Source of the DNA: Terriglobia bacterium
Lineage (GTDB): Bacteria; Acidobacteriota; Terriglobia; Acidiferrales; UBA7541
Length of the DNA: 37,897 nt
NCBI GenBank assembly: GCA_020072805.1
Contig: JAIQGC010000019.1
Location: 1-37,897, forward strand
Reading direction: 5' to 3'
Shown here: positions 9,799 to 33,016 of the stretch, in pieces
Position numbering within the stretch: the stretch's first letter is position 1
Layout of the letters: each line of letters opens with the position of its first letter
The notes under the pieces: model-generated
Databases searched by the model: none
Seen by the model: the letters and a program-made list of their open reading frames with translations, nothing else
What the model was told of the DNA's origin: nothing
Translations under genes and position numbers: made by a program

Positions 9799-11174
9799 TT
9801 CTGTTCCTCGGAAGTGTGCGCCACCAGCTCGCGCATCTCGGCGATGGAAATCGCCGGCAGCGTGCGCACAAACAGGAATATCAGCATCACAAAGAGCCCA
9901 ATCGTTCCCGCGAACGTCCCCACATCCCAGATCGTCGGCCGGTAATTGCCCCACGCCGAGGGCATGAAGTCGCGGTGCAGGCTCATCACCACGATCACGA
10001 AGCGCTCCAGCCACATCCCCACGTTGATCACCAGCGACATCACAAAGAGCAGCGCCACGTTCGTGCGCGCCCGGTGCAGCCACAGCAATTGCGGGATCAC
10101 GATGTTGCACAGGATCAGCGCCCAGTAAAACGCCGCGTACGGCCCGTGCATCCGGTTCATGGCCAGGAAGCTGTCGTACTTATTCCCCGAATAAAACGCC
10201 ATGAAGAATTCCATGCAGTAGCCGTAAGCCACGATCAGCCCCGTCGCCAGCATCACCTTGGCCATGTTCTCCAGATGGCGCATGGTGATGAAATCCTCGA
10301 GCCCGTAAAACTTGCGCAGCGGAATCGCCAGCGTCACCACCATGGCGAAGCCCGAATAAATCGCCCCGGCCACGAAGTACGGCGGGAAAATCGTCGTGTG
10401 CCAGCCCGGCACCACCGCCACCGCGAAGTCGAAGCTCACCACCGTGTGCACCGAAACCACCAGCGGCGTCGCCAGGCCCGCCAGCAGCAGGTAGGCCATC
10501 TGGTAGCGGTGCCAGTGCCGCGCCGAACCCCGCCAGCCCATGGCCAGCAGCCCGTAAATCATCTGCTGCGGCCGCGAAGTCGCCCGGTCCCGCAGCGTCG
10601 CCAGGTCCGGCAGCAGGCCCACGAACCAGAACAGCAGCGAAACCGTGAAATACGTGGATACCGCGAAAACGTCCCAGATCAGCGGGCTGCGGAATTGCGG
10701 CCAGATCCCCATCGTATTGGGATACGGCATCATGAAGTACGCCGCATACCACGGCCGCCCCGTGTGAATCAGCGGAAACAATCCCGCGCAGGCCACCGCG
10801 AACAGCGTCATGGCCTCGGCAAAGCGGTTGATCGACGTCCGCCACTTCTGATTCAGCAGCAGCAAAATCGCCGAAATCAGCGTGCCCGCATGTCCGATAC
10901 CGATCCACCAGACGAAATTGACGATGGCGAAGCCCCAGGCGACCGGGATGTTCAGTCCCCAGATCCCCGTGCCCCTGGCGATCAGGTACGCCACGCACAT
11001 TCCCAGCATCATCACCAGGCCGAAAGCGATGCTGATCCCGAAAAACCAGCCCGCTCCCGCCGGCCGGCTGAGCACAATCGAGCTGATCTTTTCCGTTACC
11101 GTTCCAAACGTGTGGCCGGGCTCGACAACCGGAGCGACCCTGCGCAGGGAAGATGTATCGTTCGTCGCGCTCAT
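9795..11174 (-). CDS. actC: Alternative complex III NrfD-like membrane subunit ActC
   Basis: ActC is the NrfD/PsrC-family quinol-binding membrane subunit of ACIII. The 459-aa protein has about ten helices. Typical stretches are GWFFGISIAFGLVMMLG at the first helix, NFVWWIGIGHAGTLISAIL, a HTGRPWYAAYFMMPYPNTMGIWPQFRSPLIWD loop (quoted here only by its ends), HTVVSFDFAVAVVPGWHTT and IFPPYFVAGAIYSGFA. The HTGRPW, HTVVSFDF and GWHTT histidines and acids lie where NrfD-like proteins bind quinol. The chosen ATG at 11172-11174 overlaps the actB stop by 4 nt (ATGA), whereas the longer open frame upstream is only actB antiphase sequence. Confidence 0.96.
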   Translation of the reverse strand: MSATNDTSSLRRVAPVVEPGHTFGTVTEKISSIVLSRPAGAGWFFGISIAFGLVMMLGMCVAYLIARGTGIWGLNIPVAWGFAIVNFVWWIGIGHAGTLISAILLLLNQKWRTSINRFAEAMTLFAVACAGLFPLIHTGRPWYAAYFMMPYPNTMGIWPQFRSPLIWDVFAVSTYFTVSLLFWFVGLLPDLATLRDRATSRPQQMIYGLLAMGWRGSARHWHRYQMAYLLLAGLATPLVVSVHTVVSFDFAVAVVPGWHTTIFPPYFVAGAIYSGFAMVVTLAIPLRKFYGLEDFITMRHLENMAKVMLATGLIVAYGYCMEFFMAFYSGNKYDSFLAMNRMHGPYAAFYWALILCNIVIPQLLWLHRARTNVALLFVMSLVINVGMWLERFVIVVMSLHRDFMPSAWGNYRPTIWDVGTFAGTIGLFVMLIFLFVRTLPAISIAEMRELVAHTSEEQK

Positions 11175-14100
11175 TTCGTTTCCTTGGCCGGATGCTCCGG
11201 ACGTTCCAGCTCCGGATTGGTGTTCTTCACGGCTCCCAGATAAGTCGTGCGCGGCCGCGCGTTCAGCTCGGCCAGAATCGTGTAGTTGCGCTGCTGCGCC
11301 TTGAGCTTGGCCACGCGGCTCTTGGGATCGTTGGCGTTGCCGAAGACGATGGCCTCGCTGGGGCAGGCCGCTTCGCACGCCGTGACAATTTCCCCGTCGC
11401 GGATCGGCCGGTTTTCCTTTTCCGCTTCAATGCGCACGTTATTGATGCGCTGCACGCAGTAGGTGCACTTTTCCATCACGCCGCGGCTGCGCACGGTCAC
11501 TTCCGGATTGCGCATCAGCTTGAATTCGGGCGTTTCCCAGTCCTGGTAGCGGAAGAAATTAAAGCGCCGCACCTTGTACGGGCAGTTGTTCGAGCAATAG
11601 CGTGTCCCGATGCAGCGGTTATAGACCATGTCGTTCAGGCCCTCCGCGCTGTGCGTCGTTGCTCCCACCGGGCAAACCTGCTCGCACGGCGCGTTTTCGC
11701 ACTGCTGGCACGGCACCGGTTGAAAGAGCATCGCCGGATCGTCCAGCGAGCCCTCGTAGTAGCGGTCAATGCGGATCCAGTGCATTTCCCGCCCGCGCAG
11801 CACCTGCTCCTTGCCCACGATCGGAGTGTTGTTTTCCGCTCCGCAAGCCACCACGCACGCGTTGCAGCCGTTGCAGGAAGCCAGGTCAATCGCCATGCCC
11901 CAGGCATAGCCGGGGTATTCGAATTCCTTGTAGAGAGACAGTCCCTTCATCTTCTCTTCTTCGGGAAGCTGCGTGAATCCGGGATTCTTCTTGAACTCCT
12001 CGAACGAAGCCGAGCGCACCAGTTCGCGCCCTTCCATGTTGTGATGCGCCTGCGTGCACGCCAGCGGATACGTCTCGCCCGTCTTGCGCACGCTCCCGCC
12101 CGTCGCCGTCCACAGCGCCGCCGCGCTGCGCACCGCGTAGGCGTTGAATCCCTTGTTCGTTCCCGCGTGCCCGGACTTGCTGCGCCCGTAGCCCAGCGGC
12201 AGGGTAATCACGCCCTCGGCCTGCCCCGGCAGCGTCCACACCGCCGCGCTCACTTTGCCTCCGGACAACTCGATCTCCGCAATGTCGGAAATGGTCTGTC
12301 CGTGCTCGCCGCCCACGAACGCGCTGCTGTGCTTAAATCCGAATTTCTCCGCCGTCTTCGGACTTACCAGCGCGGCGTTGTCCCACGTCAGCTTGCTCGC
12401 CGGCTTGGGCAGCTCCTGCAGCCAGCCGTTGTTGGCGAATCGCCCGTCGTAAACGCAGGGGTCGGGCCGGAAAACAAACTCGATCTGGTCCGCCGCCAGT
12501 GGCTTCGCCGCCGGCATGCTCGCCGGGCTCCACTTCGTCGTGAGGCTCAGCGGCGCAAACGCCGTCGCTTCGATCACGCCGTCGTGCAGCCACTTGCGCC
12601 ATTCCTTTTCCGTGTGCCCGCCCAGCCAGGTCGCCCGCACGCGGTCGTAGGCGGACATCCCCGGCTTGTCCGAGAAAGCTCCCACCACGTCATGCGCCGT
12701 CTTGCCCTGATAGAGCGGCGCGATCAGCGGCTGCACAATGCTCGCCGTTCCGTCGAACGCCCGCGCATCGCTCCACGATTCCAGGTAATGCGCTTCCGGA
12801 ATGTTCCACTGGCAATGTTCCGCGGTCTCGTCGGCGTAGGCGCCCAACCGCACCGCCAGCCGCACCTTCTTCAGCTTCTCCGCAAAATCGTAATCCCGCG
12901 GCGCGTCATAGACCGGATTCCCGCCCAGGATCAGCAGCGTGTCCACGCGCCCGTTGTGCATGTCCGCGCACAATTCGCGAATCGACTCCGCATGATTCAC
13001 CGGCTGCGCTTCCGCCGGCTCCGTGTAGTACACCGTCGCGCCATTATTTCCCAGCGCCTGATTCATCGCGTGCGCCAGCGCATGCACTTCCGCGGGCTGC
13101 TGCTCCCCGGCAATTACCAGGCTCGCCCCGCGATGCTTCTGCAGCTCTCCGGCCACCGTCTCCAAAAGTTTTTCGCTGCCCGCCGGAAGCGGCGCTCCAC
13201 CGCCCAATCCCAGTTTCCCCGCCAGCGCCCGCGCAAACAGCCCCACATCCGAGGCCCGCATTGGCACGCGATGATCCGCGGACGCTCCCGTCACCGAAGG
13301 CGTCGGCTCCAGCACGTACAGCCGGTTCATCTCCGACCCCGCCCCGCTCAGCTTGCGCCGCCGCGCGAACTGCTTCGCGTAACGCAAATGCCCCGGCCCG
13401 CTCGCCAGGAAATCTGCATCCAGCGACAGAATCACTTCCGCCTTCTCCGGGCGGTACACCGCGCTGACCACGCGCCCGAACGTCAGCTTCGCGCCTTCCC
13501 GCGCTCCGTCCGAACCCGCCGGCTCCCACTGATGCCACTTCGCCTGCGGATACTGCGTCAGCAGTCCCCGAATCTGCGCCGCCAGCGTCGGCGACGTCAC
13601 GCTTCCCGTCAGAATCTTCAGTCCCGCGCCGGTCTTCAGCACCTTCGCCGCGCCCGCCGCCGTCTCCAGAAATGCTCCCCAGGATTCGATATTCCCCTGG
13701 TGCGTCACCACCTGCGCGCGGTCCGGGTCATAGAGCCCCAGCACGGATGCCTGCGCAAACGCGTTCGACGCTCCCAGGCTCCCCGGATGATCCGGATTGC
13801 CCTCAATTTTGGTCGGCCGCCCTTCGTGGCTTTCCACCAGCAGCCCGATCGCGTCCGCGCCCATCTGCAGCGCCGTCGCATAAAACTGCGGCTTGCCCGG
13901 GGTCAGTCCGGTGGGCTGCGTCACGTACGGCACAATCGACTCGCTCGGCGGTCCGCCGCATCCCGAAAGACCCGCCAGAGCCAGCGAAGCCGCCGCCAGC
14001 TTCAGAAAATCGCGCCGGTCCACCGATTCATCCAGCTCCGAAGCCTGCCGCGGAAATTCCCGGTGCAGCAGCTCCGCAAAGTGCGGATTGTCGGAAAGCT

Positions 14101-14251
14101 CTTCGAGGCTGCGCCAGTATTCCTTCCCGCTGCTCTTGCTCAGCCGTTCGCGGATGGCTGCCAGGTCCACGGAATATTCCCGCGGCGCCAGTTCCACTTC
14201 CTCGTGGTCGTGTTCGTCGTGTTGCTTGTGCTTGTGATCGTCCGCGCTCAT
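11171..14251 (-). CDS. actB: Alternative complex III iron-sulfur subunit ActB (B1-B2 fusion)
   Basis: The largest ACIII subunit, 1026 aa, on the outer face of the membrane. The first ~780 residues resemble a molybdopterin oxidoreductase that in ACIII binds no molybdenum (B1); the rest is a ferredoxin-like B2 part. The N-terminus is His/Asp-rich, and the twin-arginine motif RRDFLK lies only at residues 79-84 with a hydrophobic run ending at GCGG; this delayed Tat signal is known for the family. Cysteine groups are CNGCNACVVAC near 794, CQQCENAPCEQVCP, CIGTRYCSNNCP, and CTYC paired with CEAACP. In the third group the second Cys is Thr, the form expected for a [3Fe-4S] cluster, so three [4Fe-4S] plus one [3Fe-4S] are predicted. 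It lies 37 nt after actA. Confidence 0.97.
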   Translation of the reverse strand: MSADDHKHKQHDEHDHEEVELAPREYSVDLAAIRERLSKSSGKEYWRSLEELSDNPHFAELLHREFPRQASELDESVDRRDFLKLAAASLALAGLSGCGGPPSESIVPYVTQPTGLTPGKPQFYATALQMGADAIGLLVESHEGRPTKIEGNPDHPGSLGASNAFAQASVLGLYDPDRAQVVTHQGNIESWGAFLETAAGAAKVLKTGAGLKILTGSVTSPTLAAQIRGLLTQYPQAKWHQWEPAGSDGAREGAKLTFGRVVSAVYRPEKAEVILSLDADFLASGPGHLRYAKQFARRRKLSGAGSEMNRLYVLEPTPSVTGASADHRVPMRASDVGLFARALAGKLGLGGGAPLPAGSEKLLETVAGELQKHRGASLVIAGEQQPAEVHALAHAMNQALGNNGATVYYTEPAEAQPVNHAESIRELCADMHNGRVDTLLILGGNPVYDAPRDYDFAEKLKKVRLAVRLGAYADETAEHCQWNIPEAHYLESWSDARAFDGTASIVQPLIAPLYQGKTAHDVVGAFSDKPGMSAYDRVRATWLGGHTEKEWRKWLHDGVIEATAFAPLSLTTKWSPASMPAAKPLAADQIEFVFRPDPCVYDGRFANNGWLQELPKPASKLTWDNAALVSPKTAEKFGFKHSSAFVGGEHGQTISDIAEIELSGGKVSAAVWTLPGQAEGVITLPLGYGRSKSGHAGTNKGFNAYAVRSAAALWTATGGSVRKTGETYPLACTQAHHNMEGRELVRSASFEEFKKNPGFTQLPEEEKMKGLSLYKEFEYPGYAWGMAIDLASCNGCNACVVACGAENNTPIVGKEQVLRGREMHWIRIDRYYEGSLDDPAMLFQPVPCQQCENAPCEQVCPVGATTHSAEGLNDMVYNRCIGTRYCSNNCPYKVRRFNFFRYQDWETPEFKLMRNPEVTVRSRGVMEKCTYCVQRINNVRIEAEKENRPIRDGEIVTACEAACPSEAIVFGNANDPKSRVAKLKAQQRNYTILAELNARPRTTYLGAVKNTNPELERPEHPAKETK

Positions 14252-14288
14252 ACCTTCTCTTTGCGTCTCTCCGGATTCCCTGCGTTTT

Positions 14289-14948
14289 CTACCGATGACA
14301 CGTCGAACAACTGGTCAGTTCCGCCGTCGTCCGAATCTTGTACTGCGCCGCCAGCGCCCGCCCGATTTCCGCCTGGTTCGCCGGCGCCTTCCAATCCATG
14401 TTCACAACGTCCTTCTTCTCGCGCAGCACCTGCCCTGGATTGCGGTGGCAATCCAGACACCAGCTCATCAGCAGCGTCGAGGACTGCCACATCAGGGCCA
14501 TCTGATTCACCGGCCCGTGGCAGGACGAACAGCCCACTCCCTTGTTCACGTGAATGCTGTGGTTGAAATAAACGAAGTCCGGCAGGCGGTGCACCCGCGA
14601 CCACTGCAGCGGCTTCCCGCTCCGGTAGCTTTCCCGCACCGGCTCCAGGTACGCCGCATCCTTAAACAGCACCGAATGGCAGTTCATGCAGGTCTTCGTC
14701 GGCGGTATCCCCGCAAACGCCGAAGTCTCCACTCCCGTGTGGCAGTACCGGCAGTCTATGCCGTCGTCCCCCACGTGGTGCTTGTGGCTGAATTGAATGG
14801 GCTGCTCACGCACCACATTCTGGTTCGTCTTATAGGGTGAACGCGGCGTGGCGTAAATTACCAGACCCGCCAGCCCCGCCGCCAGGATGGCAGCGAACAG
14901 CGAGAACCGCGCGATAAAGTTTGTACTGCGGTGAAAAATCTGCGCCAT
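14289..14948 (-). CDS. actA: Alternative complex III pentahaem cytochrome c subunit ActA
   Basis: A 219-aa multihaem cytochrome anchored by one N-terminal helix (RFSLFAAILAAGLAGLVIY). Five CxxCH haem sites are visible in order: CRYCH, CMNCH, CSSCH, CLDCH and CSTCH, the last at the extreme C-terminus. Extra histidines in SHKHH and NHSIH are candidate distal ligands. In ACIII it takes electrons from the ActB clusters and passes them to ActE or an external acceptor. It is the first gene of the operon; the ATG is at 14946-14948, with a ~370-nt upstream region containing two hairpins. Confidence 0.96.
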   Translation of the reverse strand: MAQIFHRSTNFIARFSLFAAILAAGLAGLVIYATPRSPYKTNQNVVREQPIQFSHKHHVGDDGIDCRYCHTGVETSAFAGIPPTKTCMNCHSVLFKDAAYLEPVRESYRSGKPLQWSRVHRLPDFVYFNHSIHVNKGVGCSSCHGPVNQMALMWQSSTLLMSWCLDCHRNPGQVLREKKDVVNMDWKAPANQAEIGRALAAQYKIRTTAELTSCSTCHR

Positions 14949-15315: not shown

Positions 15316-15391
15316 TGGGGCGTGGTCTAACCGGTAGGACACCTCACTGTTAATGAGGTCGGTGAAGGTTCGAATCCTTCCGCCCCAGCCA
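15316..15391 (+). tRNA. tRNA-Asn (anticodon GTT), CCA encoded
   Basis: The full cloverleaf can be folded by eye. The acceptor stem is TGGGGCG/CGCCCCA, the D stem GTCT/GGAC, and the anticodon stem CCTCA/TGAGG with loop CTGTTAA gives anticodon GTT (Asn). The variable loop is TCGGT, and the T arm is GAAGG-TTCGAAT-CCTTC. The discriminator is G at 15388, and CCA is encoded at 15389-15391. A T6 run at 15392-15397 follows at once and probably ends transcription. Confidence 0.95.
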
Positions 15392-25647: not shown

Positions 25648-26136
25648 ATGGTGATGAGCCAGGACACACTGACCAACGCATGGGACTTGCTGCAAGACGC
25701 CTACCAGGCCCAGATGGAAGGCGACTACGATAACGCCGTGGAACTCTACCGCGCTTCGCTCGAAGTGCATCCGACGGCGGAAGCGTACACCTTTCTCGGC
25801 TGGGCTTACCATTTTCAGGGCCGCCTCGAAGAGGCCATCGCCGAATGCAAGCGGGCCATCAAGATCGATCCCGAATACGGCAACCCGTACAACGACATCG
25901 GAGCCTACCTGATCGAACTAGGCCGCCCCGATGAGGCCATTCCGTGGCTGGAACTGGCGCTGGAAGCGCGCCGTTACGAGCCGCGGCATTTTCCTTATTA
26001 CAACCTGGGCCGGGCCTATCTGGCCAAGGAACTGTATGTGCGCGCCAAAGCCAGTTTTCAAAAAGCGCTGACGATCGAGCCGCGCTATCGTCTGGCGCGC
26101 GAAGCGCTCGATCATCTGCGCCGCCGCGTGAACTGA
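25648..26136 (+). CDS. Tetratricopeptide repeat protein
   Basis: A 162-aa protein made almost entirely of TPR units, from about residue 10 to 155. Repeats are readable at EGDYDNAVELYRASLEVHP, GRLEEAIAECKRAIKIDPEY, a degenerate GRPDEAIPWLELALEAR unit, and LYVRAKASFQKALTIEPRY. It has no signal peptide or catalytic domain and is probably a cytoplasmic protein-interaction adaptor. The frame is open far upstream, but that part overlaps the antisense cytochrome. ATG at 25648 or 25654 begins the first TPR; neither has a strong ribosome-binding site. The 165-nt gap to the divergent cytochrome should hold both promoters. Confidence 0.85.
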   Translation: MVMSQDTLTNAWDLLQDAYQAQMEGDYDNAVELYRASLEVHPTAEAYTFLGWAYHFQGRLEEAIAECKRAIKIDPEYGNPYNDIGAYLIELGRPDEAIPWLELALEARRYEPRHFPYYNLGRAYLAKELYVRAKASFQKALTIEPRYRLAREALDHLRRRVN

Positions 26137-26156: not shown

Positions 26157-27437
26157 CTATGCGCTCGCGGCGGGAGCGTCCTCCTGTCCCGGCTTCACGA
26201 TGCGGTCATAGACGACGAGCAGGGCGGTAGTCAGCAGACCAACGCCACAGATTACCCACCACATGCGTTCCGGCTGATTCACCACTTCGCCGTAGTGATG
26301 CGCGAGGCGTCCGCCGAGCCAGCCGCCAATCAATGAGCCGATGCCGATGGGCATGAACGCAAAGCCCATGTAGGTGCCCTGTTGCCCGGCCGGCGCCAGG
26401 TTGGAAATATATTCGTAGTAGCGCGGCTGTTGAATGATTTCGCCGACGGCCACGATGCCGATGGCGAGCACGGCGGTCCACACAGTGGGATGCGCGGCCA
26501 GGACAAGCCAGGCGAGGGAACTGACCAGCGTGCCGAGAATGACCGCGCGGAAGGCGCCCAGCTTGCGCAAAACATGGTTCACGGCCAGGGTCAGGCAGAT
26601 GACCACCGAGGCGTCGGTCATCAGCATGAGTTCGACATCGGCGGTGGAGCTGATGTGCGCGTGAATATAGACGGGCAGCATGATGAATTCCTGCCAGAAG
26701 ACGACCCAGTAGCCGGTGAAGATAAGCAGAAAAATCATGAATTTGGGATTGCCGGCCACGGTGAGGAAGTTGCGCAGGGTTTGCTTGATGGAGGGGGAAA
26801 CTTCCGCGGCGCGCCCCGGATCGCGAAAGAAAATCAGCACGGCGATGAACATGGCAAAGACGCTGAGCGCGGAAACGCGAAAGACTCGCTCGATGCCCAG
26901 GTGGCGGTGGGCCCAGGAGGCCACAAACGGACCTGCGGCGCCGCCGATATTGACCATGGTGTAGTAGATGGAATAGCCGAGGGTGCGGACGTTTTCGCGG
27001 GAGCCGCGCGCGGTCATGCCCACGACGCAGGGTTTGACCATGGAGACACCCAGGGCGGGCAGGAGGAGCACGAAGGCGACCAGGCCGGTGAGCGGGACCG
27101 CGCCGCGCAGCGGGGCCATCCAGGAGGCACCCAGCGAGCCGATGAGGAAATAGGCAGCGCTGAGGATGAGGTAGGCGAGGGAAAGGGCGCGGCGGAATCC
27201 CAAGCGGTCGGCCAGGGCACCGCCGAAGATGGCCATGAACCAGACCATGCCGCCGAAGATGCCGGTGAGCGTGCCGGTTTGGGAGGCGGGAAAATTCAGG
27301 GTTTCGTGGAGATAGATGGCCAGGGAGGAGAAGGCCGCGTAGTAGGCCAGGCGCTCGAAGATCTCGCTGATGTTGGCGACCCAGAAGCCGGAGTCGAAGC
27401 CGTCGCGGATGTCTTGCAGGCGCTGACTAAAGCTCAT
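26157..27437 (-). CDS. POT-like major facilitator superfamily transporter
   Basis: A 426-aa membrane transporter with about 12 helices. Near the N-terminus EIFERLAYY matches the ExxER(F)xYY motif of proton-coupled oligopeptide transporters, with Leu for Phe. MFS motif A is visible as GALADRLGFRRAL. A POT-like EIIQQPRYYEYISNLAPAGQQGTYMG segment (ends quoted only) lies in the second half. This suggests proton-driven import of di/tripeptides, but the length is below the usual ~480 and the substrate is not proven. The ATG at 27435-27437 has GGAGG just upstream; the frame continues open for another 330 nt, but that stretch is repeat sequence. It converges on the TPR gene with a 20-nt gap. Confidence 0.85.
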   Translation of the reverse strand: MSFSQRLQDIRDGFDSGFWVANISEIFERLAYYAAFSSLAIYLHETLNFPASQTGTLTGIFGGMVWFMAIFGGALADRLGFRRALSLAYLILSAAYFLIGSLGASWMAPLRGAVPLTGLVAFVLLLPALGVSMVKPCVVGMTARGSRENVRTLGYSIYYTMVNIGGAAGPFVASWAHRHLGIERVFRVSALSVFAMFIAVLIFFRDPGRAAEVSPSIKQTLRNFLTVAGNPKFMIFLLIFTGYWVVFWQEFIMLPVYIHAHISSTADVELMLMTDASVVICLTLAVNHVLRKLGAFRAVILGTLVSSLAWLVLAAHPTVWTAVLAIGIVAVGEIIQQPRYYEYISNLAPAGQQGTYMGFAFMPIGIGSLIGGWLGGRLAHHYGEVVNQPERMWWVICGVGLLTTALLVVYDRIVKPGQEDAPAASA

Positions 27438-27505
27438 GTGGCCTCCGAGGGTGCCGAGGCGGGATTGTATAGGAGAAAGGCGAGGTAAGGAAGTATGGGA
27501 AAGAT

Positions 27506-27537
27506 GAGGTAAGGAGGTAATGAGGTAGTGAGGTAAA
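27506..27537. repeat. Octamer tandem repeat GAGGTARN x4
   Basis: GAGGTA recurs at exact 8-nt steps at 27506, 27514, 27522 and 27530, inside a G/A-only-biased tract of about 90 nt (27466-27555). An isolated extra GAGGTA is at 27482. It lies 69-100 nt upstream of the transporter start. Confidence 0.8.
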
Positions 27538-27574
27538 GAGAGGGGCGGGGAGGAGTTCCATTTTGGGAAGAGAT

Positions 27575-27894
27575 GGGGTACACCCCGGTTGTTTTCGTAA
27601 GAATGGCAAATAAAGGGGGTTACGGAGAGCGAAGTTTGTAAGAATGGCAAATAAGGGACTTGCGGGATGGGGTTTGGCGCGGAGGGATGAAAAAAATGAG
27701 GATCGGAGAGGCGGGAATAGATTATTAGAGAGCAGAAGGCGGTACATCCCCGGTGTTTTTGCAAAGAGTGCGCAAATTACAGATTTCAGAAGGGTTGCGG
27801 CGCGATCCTGTTTTTGGAAAAGCGAAAGAGTGTGGAAGAGATTGATTGCAGGGGAGTTGCGGAACGCTCCTGCTTTTGGAAGAGCGCAAGAGGG
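27575..27894. repeat. Imperfect direct repeats in the noncoding region
   Basis: Three families are visible. GTAAGAATGGCAAATAA is at 27597 and 27638. GGTACAYCCCCGGT-like blocks followed by T-rich sequence are near 27577 and 27741. A ~39-nt block beginning GTTGCGG and containing CCTGYTTTTGGAARAGCG is at 27794-27832 and again at 27856-27894, offset 62 nt. They look like duplicated noncoding modules. Confidence 0.65.
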
Positions 27895-28086
27895 CGAAGA
27901 AAATGCGGTTTGGGGTTGCGGGAGGATGTGGAGGCCGTAATTCATAAAGAATGATAGCGTATAAGTAACGGTATTTCAATGATTCTAATGTAAGATTTGA
28001 AGGGTTTGTGGAAAAGTCTAGAAATCGTGATCGGGAATAGTGAGTGATGCGCAGTGCGGTCAAAGTACGAGCCCTGCAACGAATCC

Positions 28087-28115
28087 TTGAAGTTCGGCGC
28101 ACGAATGATTATAAG
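28087..28115 (+). promoter_or_regulatory. sigma70-like promoter of the SNF2 gene
   Basis: -35 TTGAAG (28087-28092), a 17-nt spacer, and -10 TATAAG (28110-28115). The expected transcript start is about 15 nt before the ATG at 28137, leaving almost no leader, and no ribosome-binding site is seen. Confidence 0.65.
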
Positions 28116-28136
28116 TCGCTAGATATCTAATCCATT

Positions 28137-30650
28137 ATGCGCCAGGCAGCCGGACAGGTGTTCATAAGTTTCTTCTCCCGTCTCTTTCCCAAGACGAAGG
28201 ATGTGGAGGTCCATGTTGATTCCTCCGTTGATGAGAGCAACGTCTACGTCGATGTGAGCCTGCGCCATGGGGATGCGGTCTATCGCTTTGAAAATCTCGG
28301 AAAACTACCTGCGCGCATCAAGGTCGGGGATCGATATTTTCGCATTTCCCAGAAAAATCGGCATACGTTAATCCAGCTGGCAAATCTAGACGCGCGGTTT
28401 GATCCTCAAAAGGGTTTTGTCTTTCCGGAAAGAGATGTTCCTGAAGTACTCAACTATCTTCGCCCGAAGGCCAGTGTTGAGTTTTCGAAGGCTTCAAAGC
28501 GCATACATGTTGATGAGAAGCCGCTGGAATATGAACACAACGTGTCGCAAGTTGGGGAAGACGTCGAGGTCGAGACGTCATTGGCATCCCCTGATTCCCG
28601 GATTCGAATTGACGCGCCCCAGGACGCGAAGTTTATCGAGGGCTCTAAGTACGCCCATGCGCCGAGCGGATATTTTCGTAAGCCTCAGGAGAGGAAGTTC
28701 GAAACGCTAACTGGGGAAATTGGAAAAACCAGGCTGCGCGGCGATCAAATTCCTTTTTTCCTATTGCATGATCTGAAAAGAATTCAATCTGAGCCGGGAA
28801 GTAAAGTGGCGAGAGATGTTCAGTCGCAACGCGTTATCGTACAGCAGTTCCAGCCAAAAGTTTCGCTGCAAGTGGATGGACCCTGGATTTGGTTTGACGT
28901 TCGTTACGAGGCCGATAAATTCAAGGTCGGCTATCAGGAAATGGAGAAGCTCGACTCCTCGCGAAGCTTCATTCGACATGGCGAGGCTTGGATTCAAGCG
29001 GACAAGCAAACCCATGCGCGCGTTGCTGAGCGAGTCGAGGAGATCCCGGAAGTCGAGGCTATAGAAGAAAGGTTTCGCACTCGGACTTACCACTTCGATG
29101 AGGTGCAGTCTCTCTTAGAGCAAGTCGCCAGCCTTGATATATCTGATGCTTATGCTCAATTTCGAAAGGCACTCGAAGATTTCTCGCAGATTGAGGAGCA
29201 TCCGCTGCCGTACAGTTTAAAAGGTATATTGCGGTCGTACCAGAAACATGGCTATGACTGGCTCGCGTTTCTTGCGAAGTATGGTTTGAATGGGATTCTG
29301 GCCGACGAGATGGGATTAGGAAAGACTGCCCAAGCGCTGACGAAACTACTTGATGCTCATGCGGGTGGAGAAGCAGGGACATCACTGGTCGTTTGTCCGC
29401 CGTCTGTTCTCAGTTCATGGCAAGACGACCTGAAAAAATTCACGTCCCCGGTTGAGTTTCGCACTGCGATCTATATGGGTTCAAATCGACAAAGGATTCT
29501 AAAGGATCTTCATCACTACCAGGCAATTCTGACGACGTACAACATTGTCACGCGGGATATAGAGATTCTCTCGAAAGTGACGTGGGAATATGTAGTGCTA
29601 GACGAGGCGCAGAAAATCAAAAATGTGGAAACTACCACGGCGAAGACGTGCAAGAAGTTAATAGGGAAGCACAAGCTCGCAATTACGGGCACACCCATTG
29701 AGAATAGGCTTAGCGAATTGTGGTCAATCTACGATTTTTTGATGCCCTCTTATTTGGGAACTCAGAGTTACTTCCGCGACCAGTTTGAGATTCCGATTAT
29801 GAAGAGGAACGATCGGGGCGCCCAAGAGAGACTGCGCAGGCGAGTGAGTCCTTTCAAGCTTCGACGTGAGAAGACTCTCGTGGCCTCCGAGCTTCCAGCC
29901 AAGATTCCGATGGATCGCTATTGCGAGCTTACGCCCGAACAGGTTCAGCTCTATAAGCGTTATGCTCTTGCGGAGAGGGACAGGATAGCGGGACTTCCTG
30001 GGGACAAAGTTCGAATCGACACTTCCGTTCTCACTGCAATTCTGAGGCTTAAACAAATCTGCTGTCATCCTGCGCTCGTTACGGAAGATTCGGGCGGAAT
30101 CTACAAGAGATCGGGCAAACTTGAGGCGTTCGTTGAGGTCCTGGACGAGATAATAGAGAACGATGAGAAGGCACTGATTTTCAGCCAATTTACGCAAATG
30201 CATTCGATTTTGCGGCGGGTTCTTGGCGACAAACAGTTGCGGTATTTCTATTTGGATGGTTCGACGCCGATTAAGGAACGGGCCAGATTGAAAGAGGACT
30301 TCCAGCGGGGCGAAGTTCCGTTCTTTCTAATCAGTCTCCAAGCCGGAGGCTTGGGCATGACCCTGACCGAGGCGAATTGTGTGATCCACTACGACCGTTG
30401 GTGGAATCCTGCCGTGGAAGATCAGGCGACGGATCGAGTCCACCGGATAGGCCAAAAGAAGCCCGTGAAGGTCTTTAAGATTCATACACGCGGGACGATC
30501 GATGAACGAATTGATGAGCTACAGGCGAAGAAGAAAGATCTTTTCAATTCGGTCATCGAAGTGGATCAAATGCGGAAGGAAATTACGAAGGAGGAGTTGC
30601 TTGCGCTCTTTGCCGCGCCACTGGAAACGCATCGCGGCAACGGCGTTTAG
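28137..30650 (+). CDS. SNF2 family helicase-like ATPase
   Basis: An 837-aa SWI2/SNF2 ATPase, a DNA translocase that remodels protein-DNA complexes rather than unwinding DNA. The motor follows LRSYQKHGYDWLAFL: Walker A DEMGLGKT near 391-398, CPPSVLSSW, Walker B LDEAQKIKN near 488, TGTPIENRLSELWSIYDFL, then the second lobe with IFSQFTQ, QAGGLGMTLTEAN, YDRWWNPAVEDQATDRVHRIGQ (ends quoted) and a C-terminal helix. Residues 1-370 form a basic/acidic beta-rich region that I do not recognise. TAA lies in frame three codons before the ATG, so the start cannot move up. Base composition is visibly less GC-rich than the neighbours. No methylase, nuclease or phospholipase partner is adjacent, so a known defence system is not supported. 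Confidence 0.93.
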   Translation: MRQAAGQVFISFFSRLFPKTKDVEVHVDSSVDESNVYVDVSLRHGDAVYRFENLGKLPARIKVGDRYFRISQKNRHTLIQLANLDARFDPQKGFVFPERDVPEVLNYLRPKASVEFSKASKRIHVDEKPLEYEHNVSQVGEDVEVETSLASPDSRIRIDAPQDAKFIEGSKYAHAPSGYFRKPQERKFETLTGEIGKTRLRGDQIPFFLLHDLKRIQSEPGSKVARDVQSQRVIVQQFQPKVSLQVDGPWIWFDVRYEADKFKVGYQEMEKLDSSRSFIRHGEAWIQADKQTHARVAERVEEIPEVEAIEERFRTRTYHFDEVQSLLEQVASLDISDAYAQFRKALEDFSQIEEHPLPYSLKGILRSYQKHGYDWLAFLAKYGLNGILADEMGLGKTAQALTKLLDAHAGGEAGTSLVVCPPSVLSSWQDDLKKFTSPVEFRTAIYMGSNRQRILKDLHHYQAILTTYNIVTRDIEILSKVTWEYVVLDEAQKIKNVETTTAKTCKKLIGKHKLAITGTPIENRLSELWSIYDFLMPSYLGTQSYFRDQFEIPIMKRNDRGAQERLRRRVSPFKLRREKTLVASELPAKIPMDRYCELTPEQVQLYKRYALAERDRIAGLPGDKVRIDTSVLTAILRLKQICCHPALVTEDSGGIYKRSGKLEAFVEVLDEIIENDEKALIFSQFTQMHSILRRVLGDKQLRYFYLDGSTPIKERARLKEDFQRGEVPFFLISLQAGGLGMTLTEANCVIHYDRWWNPAVEDQATDRVHRIGQKKPVKVFKIHTRGTIDERIDELQAKKKDLFNSVIEVDQMRKEITKEELLALFAAPLETHRGNGV

Positions 30651-30776
30651 CTTCGAACTTCCGACCGAGACTAAGTCCACTGTGGATTGCAAAAGCACGA
30701 GAAGAGAAAAACAAGATGCCGGGTTAAAACCAGGCGCTACACAATCAGGAAAAGATGGCGGGCTCCAGATAGGGAC

Positions 30777-30817
30777 GGGCACGGCATCCCGACAAGGTCG
30801 GGACAGGTGCCGTGCCC
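30777..30817. repeat. Interspersed long hairpin
   Basis: GGGCACGGCA (30777-30786) pairs perfectly with TGCCGTGCCC (30808-30817), and inside it TCCCGAC pairs with GTCGGGA around an AAG loop, with a 4-nt bulge on one side. It lies in the 227-nt gap between the SNF2 and M28 genes. It resembles a dispersed genomic repeat rather than a terminator, as no T-run follows. Confidence 0.7.
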
Positions 30818-30877
30818 CTACGCGGCGGGAAAAAGATCGAAACGATTTGATTGCAAGTTGGTGGAAGGAGATTGGAC

Positions 30878-33016
30878 ATGAAACTGTTTACGGCGTGGGT
30901 GGTGGGGATTGTTGGGGTGATGGTGGCGAGCGCGGGCGTGGCGGCGGGGCAGAGGGTGCCGCTGTTGGCGGAGAGGGAGGTGGCGGCGCTGCATGAGGAG
31001 ATTTCCGGGGAGGCGGCGAAGAGGAATTTGGAGGGGATTGCGCGGAATCACCGGCAGAGGGGTTCGCGGGGATTTCGGGCGGCGGCGGAGCTGGTGGCGG
31101 AGCGGGCGCGGGCGTATGGGTTGAGCGATGTGCAGATTTTGCAGTTTCCGGCGGACGGGAAGATTTTCTATGGGACGCAGCGGTCGCGGCCGGCATGGGA
31201 TGCGGAGTTCGCGGAGTTGTGGGAAGTCGGAAAGGATGCGGCGAGTTGTTACGACGCAGCGACGAAAAAACCGCAAAGCAACGAGGAGATGCGCAGGCAG
31301 CTTGCGACCTTGCTACGGGAGGATTGCGACCCGAGGCTGCTCAACGGGAAACTTTTGGCGAGTTATGAGGCGATGCCGATTGTTTTGGCGGAGGACAGCG
31401 AGTCGGCGGAAGTAACGGCGGGGCTGATGGACGTGGGGAGCGGGACGGCAGAGAGCGATTATGCAGGAAAGGACGTGAAGGGAAAGATTGTCCTGGTGAG
31501 CGCGCAGGCGGGGGCGGTGCAGGAGCTGGCGGTGGGAAAGTTCGGGGCGGCGGGGATTGTGAGTTATGCGCAGAATCAGAGAACGGCGTGGTACGGCGAG
31601 GACGAGAATCTGATTCGCTGGGGGCATTTGGAGACGTTTTCGGCAAACAAGACGTTTGCGTTCATGGTGTCGCTGAAAACCGCGCGGGGATTGCGGGAGC
31701 GGCTGGGGCGCGGGGAGGAGATCCGGCTGCATGCAACGGTGAAGGCGGGGCAGCATGCGGGGAATATCGAGGTGGTGACGGCGACGATTCCGGGGGCAGA
31801 CGCGAAGTTAAAGGACGAGGAGATTGCGTTTTCGTGCCACCTGGACCACCAGCGGCCGGGGGCCAATGACAATGCGAGCGGGTGCGCGACGATTCTGGAG
31901 GTGGCGCGGACGCTGCAGAAATTGATCAATGAAGGAAAACTGGCGCGACCGGCGCGGACGATACGGTTTATCTGGCCGCCGGAGATCGAAGGGACGACGG
32001 TGCTGCTGAATGCGCGGCCGGAGTTGGCGCGGCGGATCAAGGCGGCGATTCATATGGACATGGTGGGCGGCGGGCCGGTGACCAAGGCGGTGTTCCACGT
32101 GACGCGGGGGCCGATGAGTTTGCCGTCGTTTGTGCATGACGTAGCGTGGGCGTTCGCGGAGTTCGTGAACGAGGAGTCGTACCAGTATGCGGCGACGGGG
32201 AAGGCGGAGTTTCCTTTTGTGGCGGCGGAGGGGGGTAAGGAGCCGCTGCGGGCGGAGTATTCGGCGTACACGATGGGGAGCGACCATGACGTGTATCAGG
32301 ATGGGTCGTTCAAGATACCGGCGATTTATCTGAATGACTGGCCGGATAGGTACATTCACACGAATTTCGATACGGCGGAGAATATTGATGCGACGAAATT
32401 GAGGAGGGCGGCGTTTATCGGGGCGGCCAGCGGGTATTTTCTGGCGGGAGCGGGGGCGGAGAATCGCTTGGGAACAGCAGAAGCGGTGCAGACTGGGCGG
32501 TTGGCGAGGCGGAGTTTGTTGGAGCGGAGGATGGCGCAGGTACCGCGAGATGAATACGGCGTGCTGGGGTTCGCATTTGCGGATGCGGAGCGGGAGATTG
32601 GGCTTTCGGTCATGCGTTTTTTTCCGCACTTGGCCGCGGGGAATGAGAAGTTGGCGCCGTTTGTGGCGGTGGAGCAAAAAGTGATTCGGGGCGGCGCTGC
32701 GGCGAGCGGGGACGGGGCACTGGTTTTTCGGAGAGTGGAACAGCCGCGGGGGCCGATGGCCGTGTTTGGGTATGACTATTTTACGGATCACTGGCGGGAG
32801 AAAGGGATGGCCGCGCCGAAGCTGCTGAGCTACGAGGGATTGTGGGGCGCGGGGGAGGAGTACGCGTACGAGGCGCTGAATTTTGCGGATGGGACGAGAA
32901 ATGCGCGGGAGATTCGGGATGCGGTGTCGGCGGAGTATGGGCCGGTGGGGCTGGAGATGGTGGTGGAGTATTTGCGTGGGCTGGAGAGGATTGGGGTGGT
33001 GGAGTTGAAGAAGTGA
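30878..33016 (+). CDS. Secreted M28 family metallopeptidase with PA-like insert
   Basis: A 712-aa exported zinc aminopeptidase. A Sec signal peptide (about 1-24, AGVAAG) is followed by an N-terminal region, a PA-like protease-associated segment (DYAGKDVKGKIVLVSAQ ... FGAAGIVSYA, about 185-240), then the catalytic domain: SCHLDH near 320, GANDNASGCATILE, PPEIEGTTVLL with the base and ligand Glu, HMDMVGG, and YIHTNFDTAENID. About 190 C-terminal residues follow without a recognised domain. It probably releases N-terminal amino acids outside the cytoplasm. AAGGAG lies eight bases before the ATG at 30878. Codons end strongly in G (GCG, GGG, TTG), opposite to the M20 gene. Confidence 0.9.
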   Translation: MKLFTAWVVGIVGVMVASAGVAAGQRVPLLAEREVAALHEEISGEAAKRNLEGIARNHRQRGSRGFRAAAELVAERARAYGLSDVQILQFPADGKIFYGTQRSRPAWDAEFAELWEVGKDAASCYDAATKKPQSNEEMRRQLATLLREDCDPRLLNGKLLASYEAMPIVLAEDSESAEVTAGLMDVGSGTAESDYAGKDVKGKIVLVSAQAGAVQELAVGKFGAAGIVSYAQNQRTAWYGEDENLIRWGHLETFSANKTFAFMVSLKTARGLRERLGRGEEIRLHATVKAGQHAGNIEVVTATIPGADAKLKDEEIAFSCHLDHQRPGANDNASGCATILEVARTLQKLINEGKLARPARTIRFIWPPEIEGTTVLLNARPELARRIKAAIHMDMVGGGPVTKAVFHVTRGPMSLPSFVHDVAWAFAEFVNEESYQYAATGKAEFPFVAAEGGKEPLRAEYSAYTMGSDHDVYQDGSFKIPAIYLNDWPDRYIHTNFDTAENIDATKLRRAAFIGAASGYFLAGAGAENRLGTAEAVQTGRLARRSLLERRMAQVPRDEYGVLGFAFADAEREIGLSVMRFFPHLAAGNEKLAPFVAVEQKVIRGGAAASGDGALVFRRVEQPRGPMAVFGYDYFTDHWREKGMAAPKLLSYEGLWGAGEEYAYEALNFADGTRNAREIRDAVSAEYGPVGLEMVVEYLRGLERIGVVELKK

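Follow-up and report, generated by a model that had tools for sequence, protein, structure and literature searches.

A 37,897-nt window of a Terriglobia genome, by which we mean the whole stretch of DNA analyzed, carries a solitary SNF2-family ATPase gene (positions 28137–30650, + strand; 837 aa) that was very probably acquired horizontally. Acquisition is well supported by composition and by comparison with other genomes. The protein is a shortened, sporadic version of a known, widespread bacterial SNF2 motor type, and the closest known systems are helicases that carry a SWIM zinc finger ahead of the motor. With moderate confidence, we propose that it is an accessory double-stranded DNA translocase that removes proteins stalled on DNA, its N-terminal half serving as a gate or target reader.

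An intact gene with a complete SNF2 motor

The open reading frame is intact, and Pfam places its product among the SNF2-family ATPases. SNF2-rel_dom (residues 368–646) scores 230.6 bits against a cut-off of 24.9 and Helicase_C (residues 667–772) 85.2 bits against 23.5, defining a motor at 29238–30452 (+) that structure superposition also recovers. The motifs ADEMGLGKT, DEAQ, TGTPIEN and QATDRVHRIGQ are all present, and key motif residues, e.g. K396, D489, E490, R767 and R770, are invariant in a 34-row alignment (A2), which bears out the first-pass annotation in calling the motor complete. Pfam recognized neither a nuclease or other effector domain nor a sensor domain: seven matches were returned at E ≤ 1, among which ResIII and DEAD cover the motor, whereas the N-terminal half carries no assigned fold. 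Within its own genome, the protein is the sole match of its kind at E ≤ 0.001.

The gene looks to be under selection. Between the window gene and its orthologue G590, differences at codon positions 1, 2 and 3 amount to 0.32, 0.22 and 0.66, and positions 1 and 2 differ far less than position 3 in all three pairs formed by the window gene, G590 and a second orthologue, G526. None of the three carries an internal stop.

AlphaFold2 modelled the motor confidently, residues 201–350 well (block means 72–92) and residues 1–195 poorly. The predicted motor superposes on the SNF2 ATPases of eukaryotic remodelling and repair complexes, namely INO80 (8oo9_G; Z 40.2, rmsd 2.4, 420 aligned), ISW1 (9jnp_K; Z 38.6, rmsd 2.8, 434 aligned) and CSB (7opd_b; Z 38.0, rmsd 3.0, 466 aligned). 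By sequence, the best PDB match is the Sulfolobus solfataricus SNF2 core (1z63/1z6a), with 1z63 reaching 375 bits over residues 358–823, but that protein is a motor core only, and superposition over the full chain is poor (rmsd 21.5).

Composition, distribution and insertion site

Base composition sets the gene apart from its flanks, as had been noted from the letters alone. Its GC content is 0.503, against a minimum of 0.567 (mean 0.610, s.d. 0.021) across 304 same-sized segments taken from the rest of the 37.9-kb window. GC3 is 0.56, compared with 0.63–0.84 in 19 of the 20 other ORFs measured; the twentieth, at 3–884 (GC3 0.48, GC1 0.83), is unlikely to be a gene. The SNF2 gene is poorly adapted to the codon usage of its fellow genes in the window (0.496), a value that is not unique among 14 other ORFs, the IclR gene scoring 0.502 and an ORF at 950 scoring 0.455. 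Both orthologues are GC-poorer than their own flanks (0.527 versus 0.607 and 0.479 versus 0.592), so each of the three copies is low in GC for where it sits. Elsewhere in the window, GC skew flips sign near 26000, apparently along with a change in gene orientation, and a very long ORF on the + strand (11153–14566) overlaps another on the − strand (11171–14251).

We surveyed 36 genomes of the genus, 89 of the family, 399 of the class and a phylum sample of 396, with the gene's own genome included in every count. The other 35 genus genomes hold no orthologue. Some SNF2 match occurs in 16 of the 36; among the genus matches listed, the gene itself aside, none starts before residue 235, and the best is 38% identical over residues 252–825. 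When residues 1–346 served as the query, two of the 89 family genomes matched, its own and G445 (22% identity), as did four of the 399 class genomes, those two included. The phylum sample, in which at most two candidates were scored per genome, contains SNF2 matches in 242 of 396 genomes. Among the matches listed there, the best other reaches 434 bits at 39% identity over residues 207–826, one 33% match starts at residue 83 and, the gene itself aside, no match of more than 39% identity reaches beyond residue 202. A syntenic housekeeping gene of matching composition throughout the phylum, the arrangement that would speak against acquisition, was looked for and is not what these genomes hold.

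Two clear orthologues were found, G590 and G526, both in one other family of the class, where 2 of 39 genomes carry the gene (2 of 40 in the order). They are 61% identical to the window protein, with 49–50% identity in the N-terminal part, the faster-evolving half of the protein, and 68–69% in the motor. Their neighbors differ from those of the window gene. The genomes that bear them are 57% and 89% complete, which leaves room for a mis-assigned contig in either. Relatives were taken as the best 80 matches in a search of genome contigs, a set from which closer relatives elsewhere may have been missed. Carriage by a phage or plasmid was considered and rejected: among 50,697 phage and 72,556 plasmid records, none covers 80% of the protein and all matches fall below 60% identity; one viral contig matches at 40% over residues 273–807.

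The gene lies between a divergent MFS transporter gene on its left (26157–27437, −; start placed by eye), matched in 34 of the 36 genus genomes, and an M28 peptidase gene on its right (30878–33016, +), matched in 24 of the 36 at the thresholds used, with both counts including its own genome and both genes named by Pfam. In 11 other genus genomes these two genes sit on one contig within ~10 kb of each other, and tblastn at E ≤ 1e-10 found an SNF2 match between them in none of the 11. The interval measures ~0.3–0.7 kb in four of these genomes, is 1.9 kb long in one, where it contains a 286-aa ion-channel-type ORF, and holds a block of some 6–9 kb in six. Four genes of the G006 block, scanned with Pfam, encode an M1 peptidase, an esterase, an FtsX permease and an ABC ATPase; single genes were scanned in the others, where similar ORF sizes suggest a similar 6–9 kb block. 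Because its contents differ across genomes, the MFS–M28 interval (26157–33016) is variable in the genus. Taken together, deviant composition, sporadic distribution and absence from between the same flanking genes in 11 other genus genomes uphold the earlier suggestion that the gene was acquired.

Pfam scans of ten surrounding ORFs named ordinary genes on both sides and no partner gene, in agreement with the first-pass view that the usual partners are absent. Farther out lie genes for a TPR protein, an HU-type DNA-binding protein, an M20 peptidase, a methyltransferase and an IclR regulator. No integrase occurs among the ten neighbors scanned, and the only tRNA of the window lies at 15316–15391.

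The gaps on either side of the gene are indeed repeat-rich, but the repeats are dispersed and do not frame it. To the left, two intergenic repeats (27547–27661 and 27734–27896) recur elsewhere in the genome and are not gene-specific; the gap that holds them (27480–28136) has 18 other genomic matches at 73–93% identity. At one place with these left-gap repeats (C117), two 17-bp units lie 41 bp apart, as they do here, with one mismatch each. Downstream of the gene, the gap 30651–30880, with five other matches at four places in the genome, contains a dispersed palindromic repeat (30777–30822) that is identical at one other genomic place and 96% identical at another. We rejected gene-specific flanking repeats, since both gaps' repeats are dispersed and a repeat search found no framing pair. 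Dispersed as they are, the repeats carry little weight as a sign of acquisition.

The gene had also been credited with its own promoter and a nearly leaderless start. By eye, a promoter-like element on the + strand consists of TTGAAG (28087–28092), a 17-nt spacer and TATAAG (28110–28115); it ends 21 nt before the ATG and would give a leader of ~15 nt, in which no Shine-Dalgarno sequence is visible. A consensus scan did not list this element, as it accepts only a T in the final position, and the three matches that it did return, against 2.1 expected, carry no weight. TATAAT stands 44 and 39 nt before the adopted starts of the two orthologues. A promoter at 28087–28115 with a short leader is plausible, not proven.

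Kinship with SWIM-SNF2 helicases

The N-terminal region (residues 1–345; 28137–29171, +) is predicted to be beta-rich. Through intermediates and an iterative profile, it appears distantly related to the region that runs from SWIM finger to motor in bacterial SWIM-SNF2 helicases. It had been described as unrecognized, and for Pfam this remains accurate: before residue 360 the sole match at E ≤ 1 is DUF7902 (E 0.45), and neither SNF2_assoc (PF08455) nor DUF3670 (PF12419) matches the protein at E ≤ 1. Profiles, however, relate it to SNF2-associated regions. An N-terminal profile based on seven closely related sequences (G590, G526, L127, L053, L044, L045 and the window protein itself) additionally matches six Planctomycetota proteins, L023 and L011. 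After five rounds it gathers 122 ORFs, most of them only over the part equal to residues ~185–345 and with drift possible. Among the 34 rows of A2, DUF3670 is found in 18 and SNF2_assoc in 7 at E ≤ 0.001, and SWIM in 7. L127, itself matched by the N-terminal profile, scores 20.7 bits against PF08455 over residues 169–467 (cut-off 27), while SNF2_assoc falls below the cut-off in L053 and above it in L011 and L100.

The closest known systems are the SWIM-SNF2_assoc/DUF3670-SNF2 helicases, represented by L053, L044, L045, L046, L047, L011 and L100. The window motor is 44–46% identical to those of L053, L044 and L045, the N-terminal region is matched by profile, and the window gene stands beside these helicases in a motor tree. 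Unlike them, the window ORF has no SWIM finger, nor does one lie in the 1.5 kb upstream, and with ORFs taken from stop to stop it is ~75–95 aa shorter than L053 and L046. The SWIM zinc-finger pattern CxCx(n)CxH was found within the first 260 residues in 13 of 18 proteins searched, the window protein included; the five without it are the window protein, G590, G526, L127 and the short ORF L048. A remnant SWIM domain upstream was considered and rejected, the best tblastn match of the L053, L046 and L127 N-termini to the 1.5 kb upstream of the three orthologues having an E of 0.41. In the motor tree (121 rows, midpoint-rooted, with long branches meeting), the window gene and its two orthologues form one group with support 100, and this group joins L127 and ten further rows, nine of them SWIM-bearing, with support 94, drawn open. 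The simplest reading is that the window lineage lost its SWIM finger.

Structure prediction, which the first-pass annotation had pointed to for this region, yielded a model without a convincing solved-structure match. Modelled alone, the N-terminal half has a mean pLDDT of 65.6. Foldseek returned 849 matches to solved structures at E ≤ 10, of which none reached E ≤ 0.001, and a second structural comparison gave Z ≤ 4.2, Z being 2 or more for 57 of 1000 chains. The top chain there, ZorD of Zorya (8qy7; Z 4.2, rmsd 7.8, 145 aligned), scores too low to count. Given so weak a model, we claim no fold and exclude none. Two PDB matches of the N-terminal profile to magnesium-transporting ATPases (E 0.0028 and 0.035; 47 residues) were taken as chance, and three internal repeats, proposed from the predicted strand order, were rejected at profile comparison probabilities of 20.9, 2.2 and 0.8%.

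Two NCBIfam families come nearest to the whole protein. The SCO1167/SCO6262 family helicase (NF058637) is the top match at 480 bits, far below its cut-off of 1200, and the pilus expression-regulating Snf2 helicase (NF053675) matches from residue 64 with 397 bits, far below 1100. Pilus regulation was pursued through a Variovorax paper and set aside: the 'snf2' proteins described there are small and secreted, 102 aa long when mature (PMC7494200), and so are not relevant here.

A proposed role in clearing DNA-bound proteins

SNF2 ATPases move on double-stranded DNA and displace or remodel bound protein. By this precedent, the ATP-driven motor of the window protein would travel along double-stranded DNA and push off or remodel the proteins bound to it. 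The likeliest targets would be stalled RNA polymerase or obstacles of another kind, which would place the protein in transcription recycling or in the tolerance of DNA damage. The beta-rich N-terminal region may gate the motor or pick its target, as the RapA N-terminal domain gates RapA.

The window protein resembles RapA/HepA in being an SNF2 ATPase with a large N-terminal region ahead of its motor, but it scores 24.9 bits against a cut-off of 576 for that family (PRK04914). The RapA N-terminal domain is described as autoinhibiting its own ATPase until RNA polymerase opens it (PMC8501970), and Bacillus subtilis HepA (YqhH) and YwqA are described as RNA polymerase interactors (PMC7385302). RNA polymerase would most plausibly be the target, by analogy with distant precedents only, as the RapA score indicates. 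A housekeeping-like role of this sort fits oddly with so sporadic a distribution, and the candidate restriction-modification pair found beside one orthologue (below) fits defense better than roadblock clearing.

We think it unlikely that the protein is instead a DNA-repair or replication-stress factor, active in fork remodelling or UV tolerance, and not an RNA polymerase recycler. Such a role would accord with a B. thuringiensis yqhH knockout, reported to have lower UV survival (PMC10054049) and equally a precedent for the preferred reading, and with the superposition of the predicted motor on CSB, taken from solved complexes with Pol II. Yet Pfam matched no repair-type accessory domain, and DNA polymerase I, 9 kb away, is the only repair gene among the ten window neighbors scanned. 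Displacement of stalled proteins from DNA remains our preferred reading.

Comparison with defense systems

The first-pass annotation had raised the idea of a single-gene phage defense system, which the comparisons do not sustain. Against PADLOC models, the window protein is led by DpdE (447 bits, best stretch 282–819) and ZorD (441 bits). These matches are motor-driven, and the corresponding NCBIfam cut-offs are far missed: ZorD scores 237.5 bits of 1500 (NF041790) and DpdE 33.9 of 500 (NF041062). Hence the motor is shared, and the family is not. The motor likewise matches ZorD 8qy7 at 195 bits, and the DISARM protein DrmD is matched at 103.7 of 950 bits (NF038318) and 65.5 of 610 (NF038317). 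PADLOC families had no match in ten window proteins at E ≤ 1e-5, and three further proteins yielded a single match, weak and generic (mad2, 26.8 bits); no Zorya partner was matched among these 13.

The neighborhoods of the homologues are mixed. The G590 orthologue has a candidate type II restriction-modification pair 411 bp upstream on the same strand. Its candidate methyltransferase scores 100 bits in PADLOC and 57.5 bits against Pfam N6_N4_Mtase (cut-off 26.7), which supports a DNA methylase, with NCBIfam matches only far below their cut-offs; the putative endonuclease scores 83 bits against the PADLOC type II REase and has no Pfam or NCBIfam match. The pair occupies L125:11383–13462 (−). 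Around G526, five ORFs scanned comprise a short IS1595-type transposase, an MFS transporter, a CoA-transferase, a sulfite reductase and one that is unmatched. The more distant relatives L053 and L049 sit among housekeeping genes: thiolase, ResB and cytochrome c assembly genes among six neighbors of L053, and CTP synthase among three of L049. A defense-like setting around one copy of three does not suffice for a claim.

Could the protein nonetheless be a solitary anti-phage or anti-plasmid factor, whose motor alone would strip or stall replication or transcription complexes on invading DNA? We judge this improbable. The gene's sporadic distribution and deviant composition would suit such a factor; related motors figure in the PADLOC models of Zorya, DISARM, Dpd and BREX, and the reference list of PMC11890865 includes a Halomonas antiphage protein in which Snf2 is fused to a nuclease. 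The pair beside G590 is the sole defense hint from context, and its putative endonuclease is the member that Pfam and NCBIfam leave unmatched. Weighing on the other side are the lack of any recognized nuclease or sensor domain, the ten window proteins without a PADLOC match, and the ordinary surroundings of G526, L053 and L049. In the open-license literature, judged by titles and the starts of abstracts, we found no title on a nuclease-free lone SNF2 defense gene. A more far-reaching version is doubtful indeed: that the short, SWIM-less SNF2 lineage spreads from genome to genome as a lone gene, at times in the company of restriction-modification genes, and works unaided against mobile DNA by dislodging replication or transcription complexes with no nuclease involved.

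Most remote is a passenger brought in by recombination that has no current function and is still undecayed, as a gene alone amid dispersed repeats, in an interval of only ~0.3–0.7 kb in four other genus genomes, might suggest; its intactness after divergence to 61% identity, its retained motifs and the restraint at codon positions 1 and 2 in all three pairs argue against this.

Discussion

As it stands, the finding is mostly one of ordinary gene acquisition. Bacterial SNF2 proteins are common, and few have a tested role. The case bears on whether lone SNF2 genes of the accessory genome are defense, repair or transcription factors. A compact, SWIM-less version that is seemingly under selection would be a handy protein for studying the motor and its N-terminal region in the absence of the finger.
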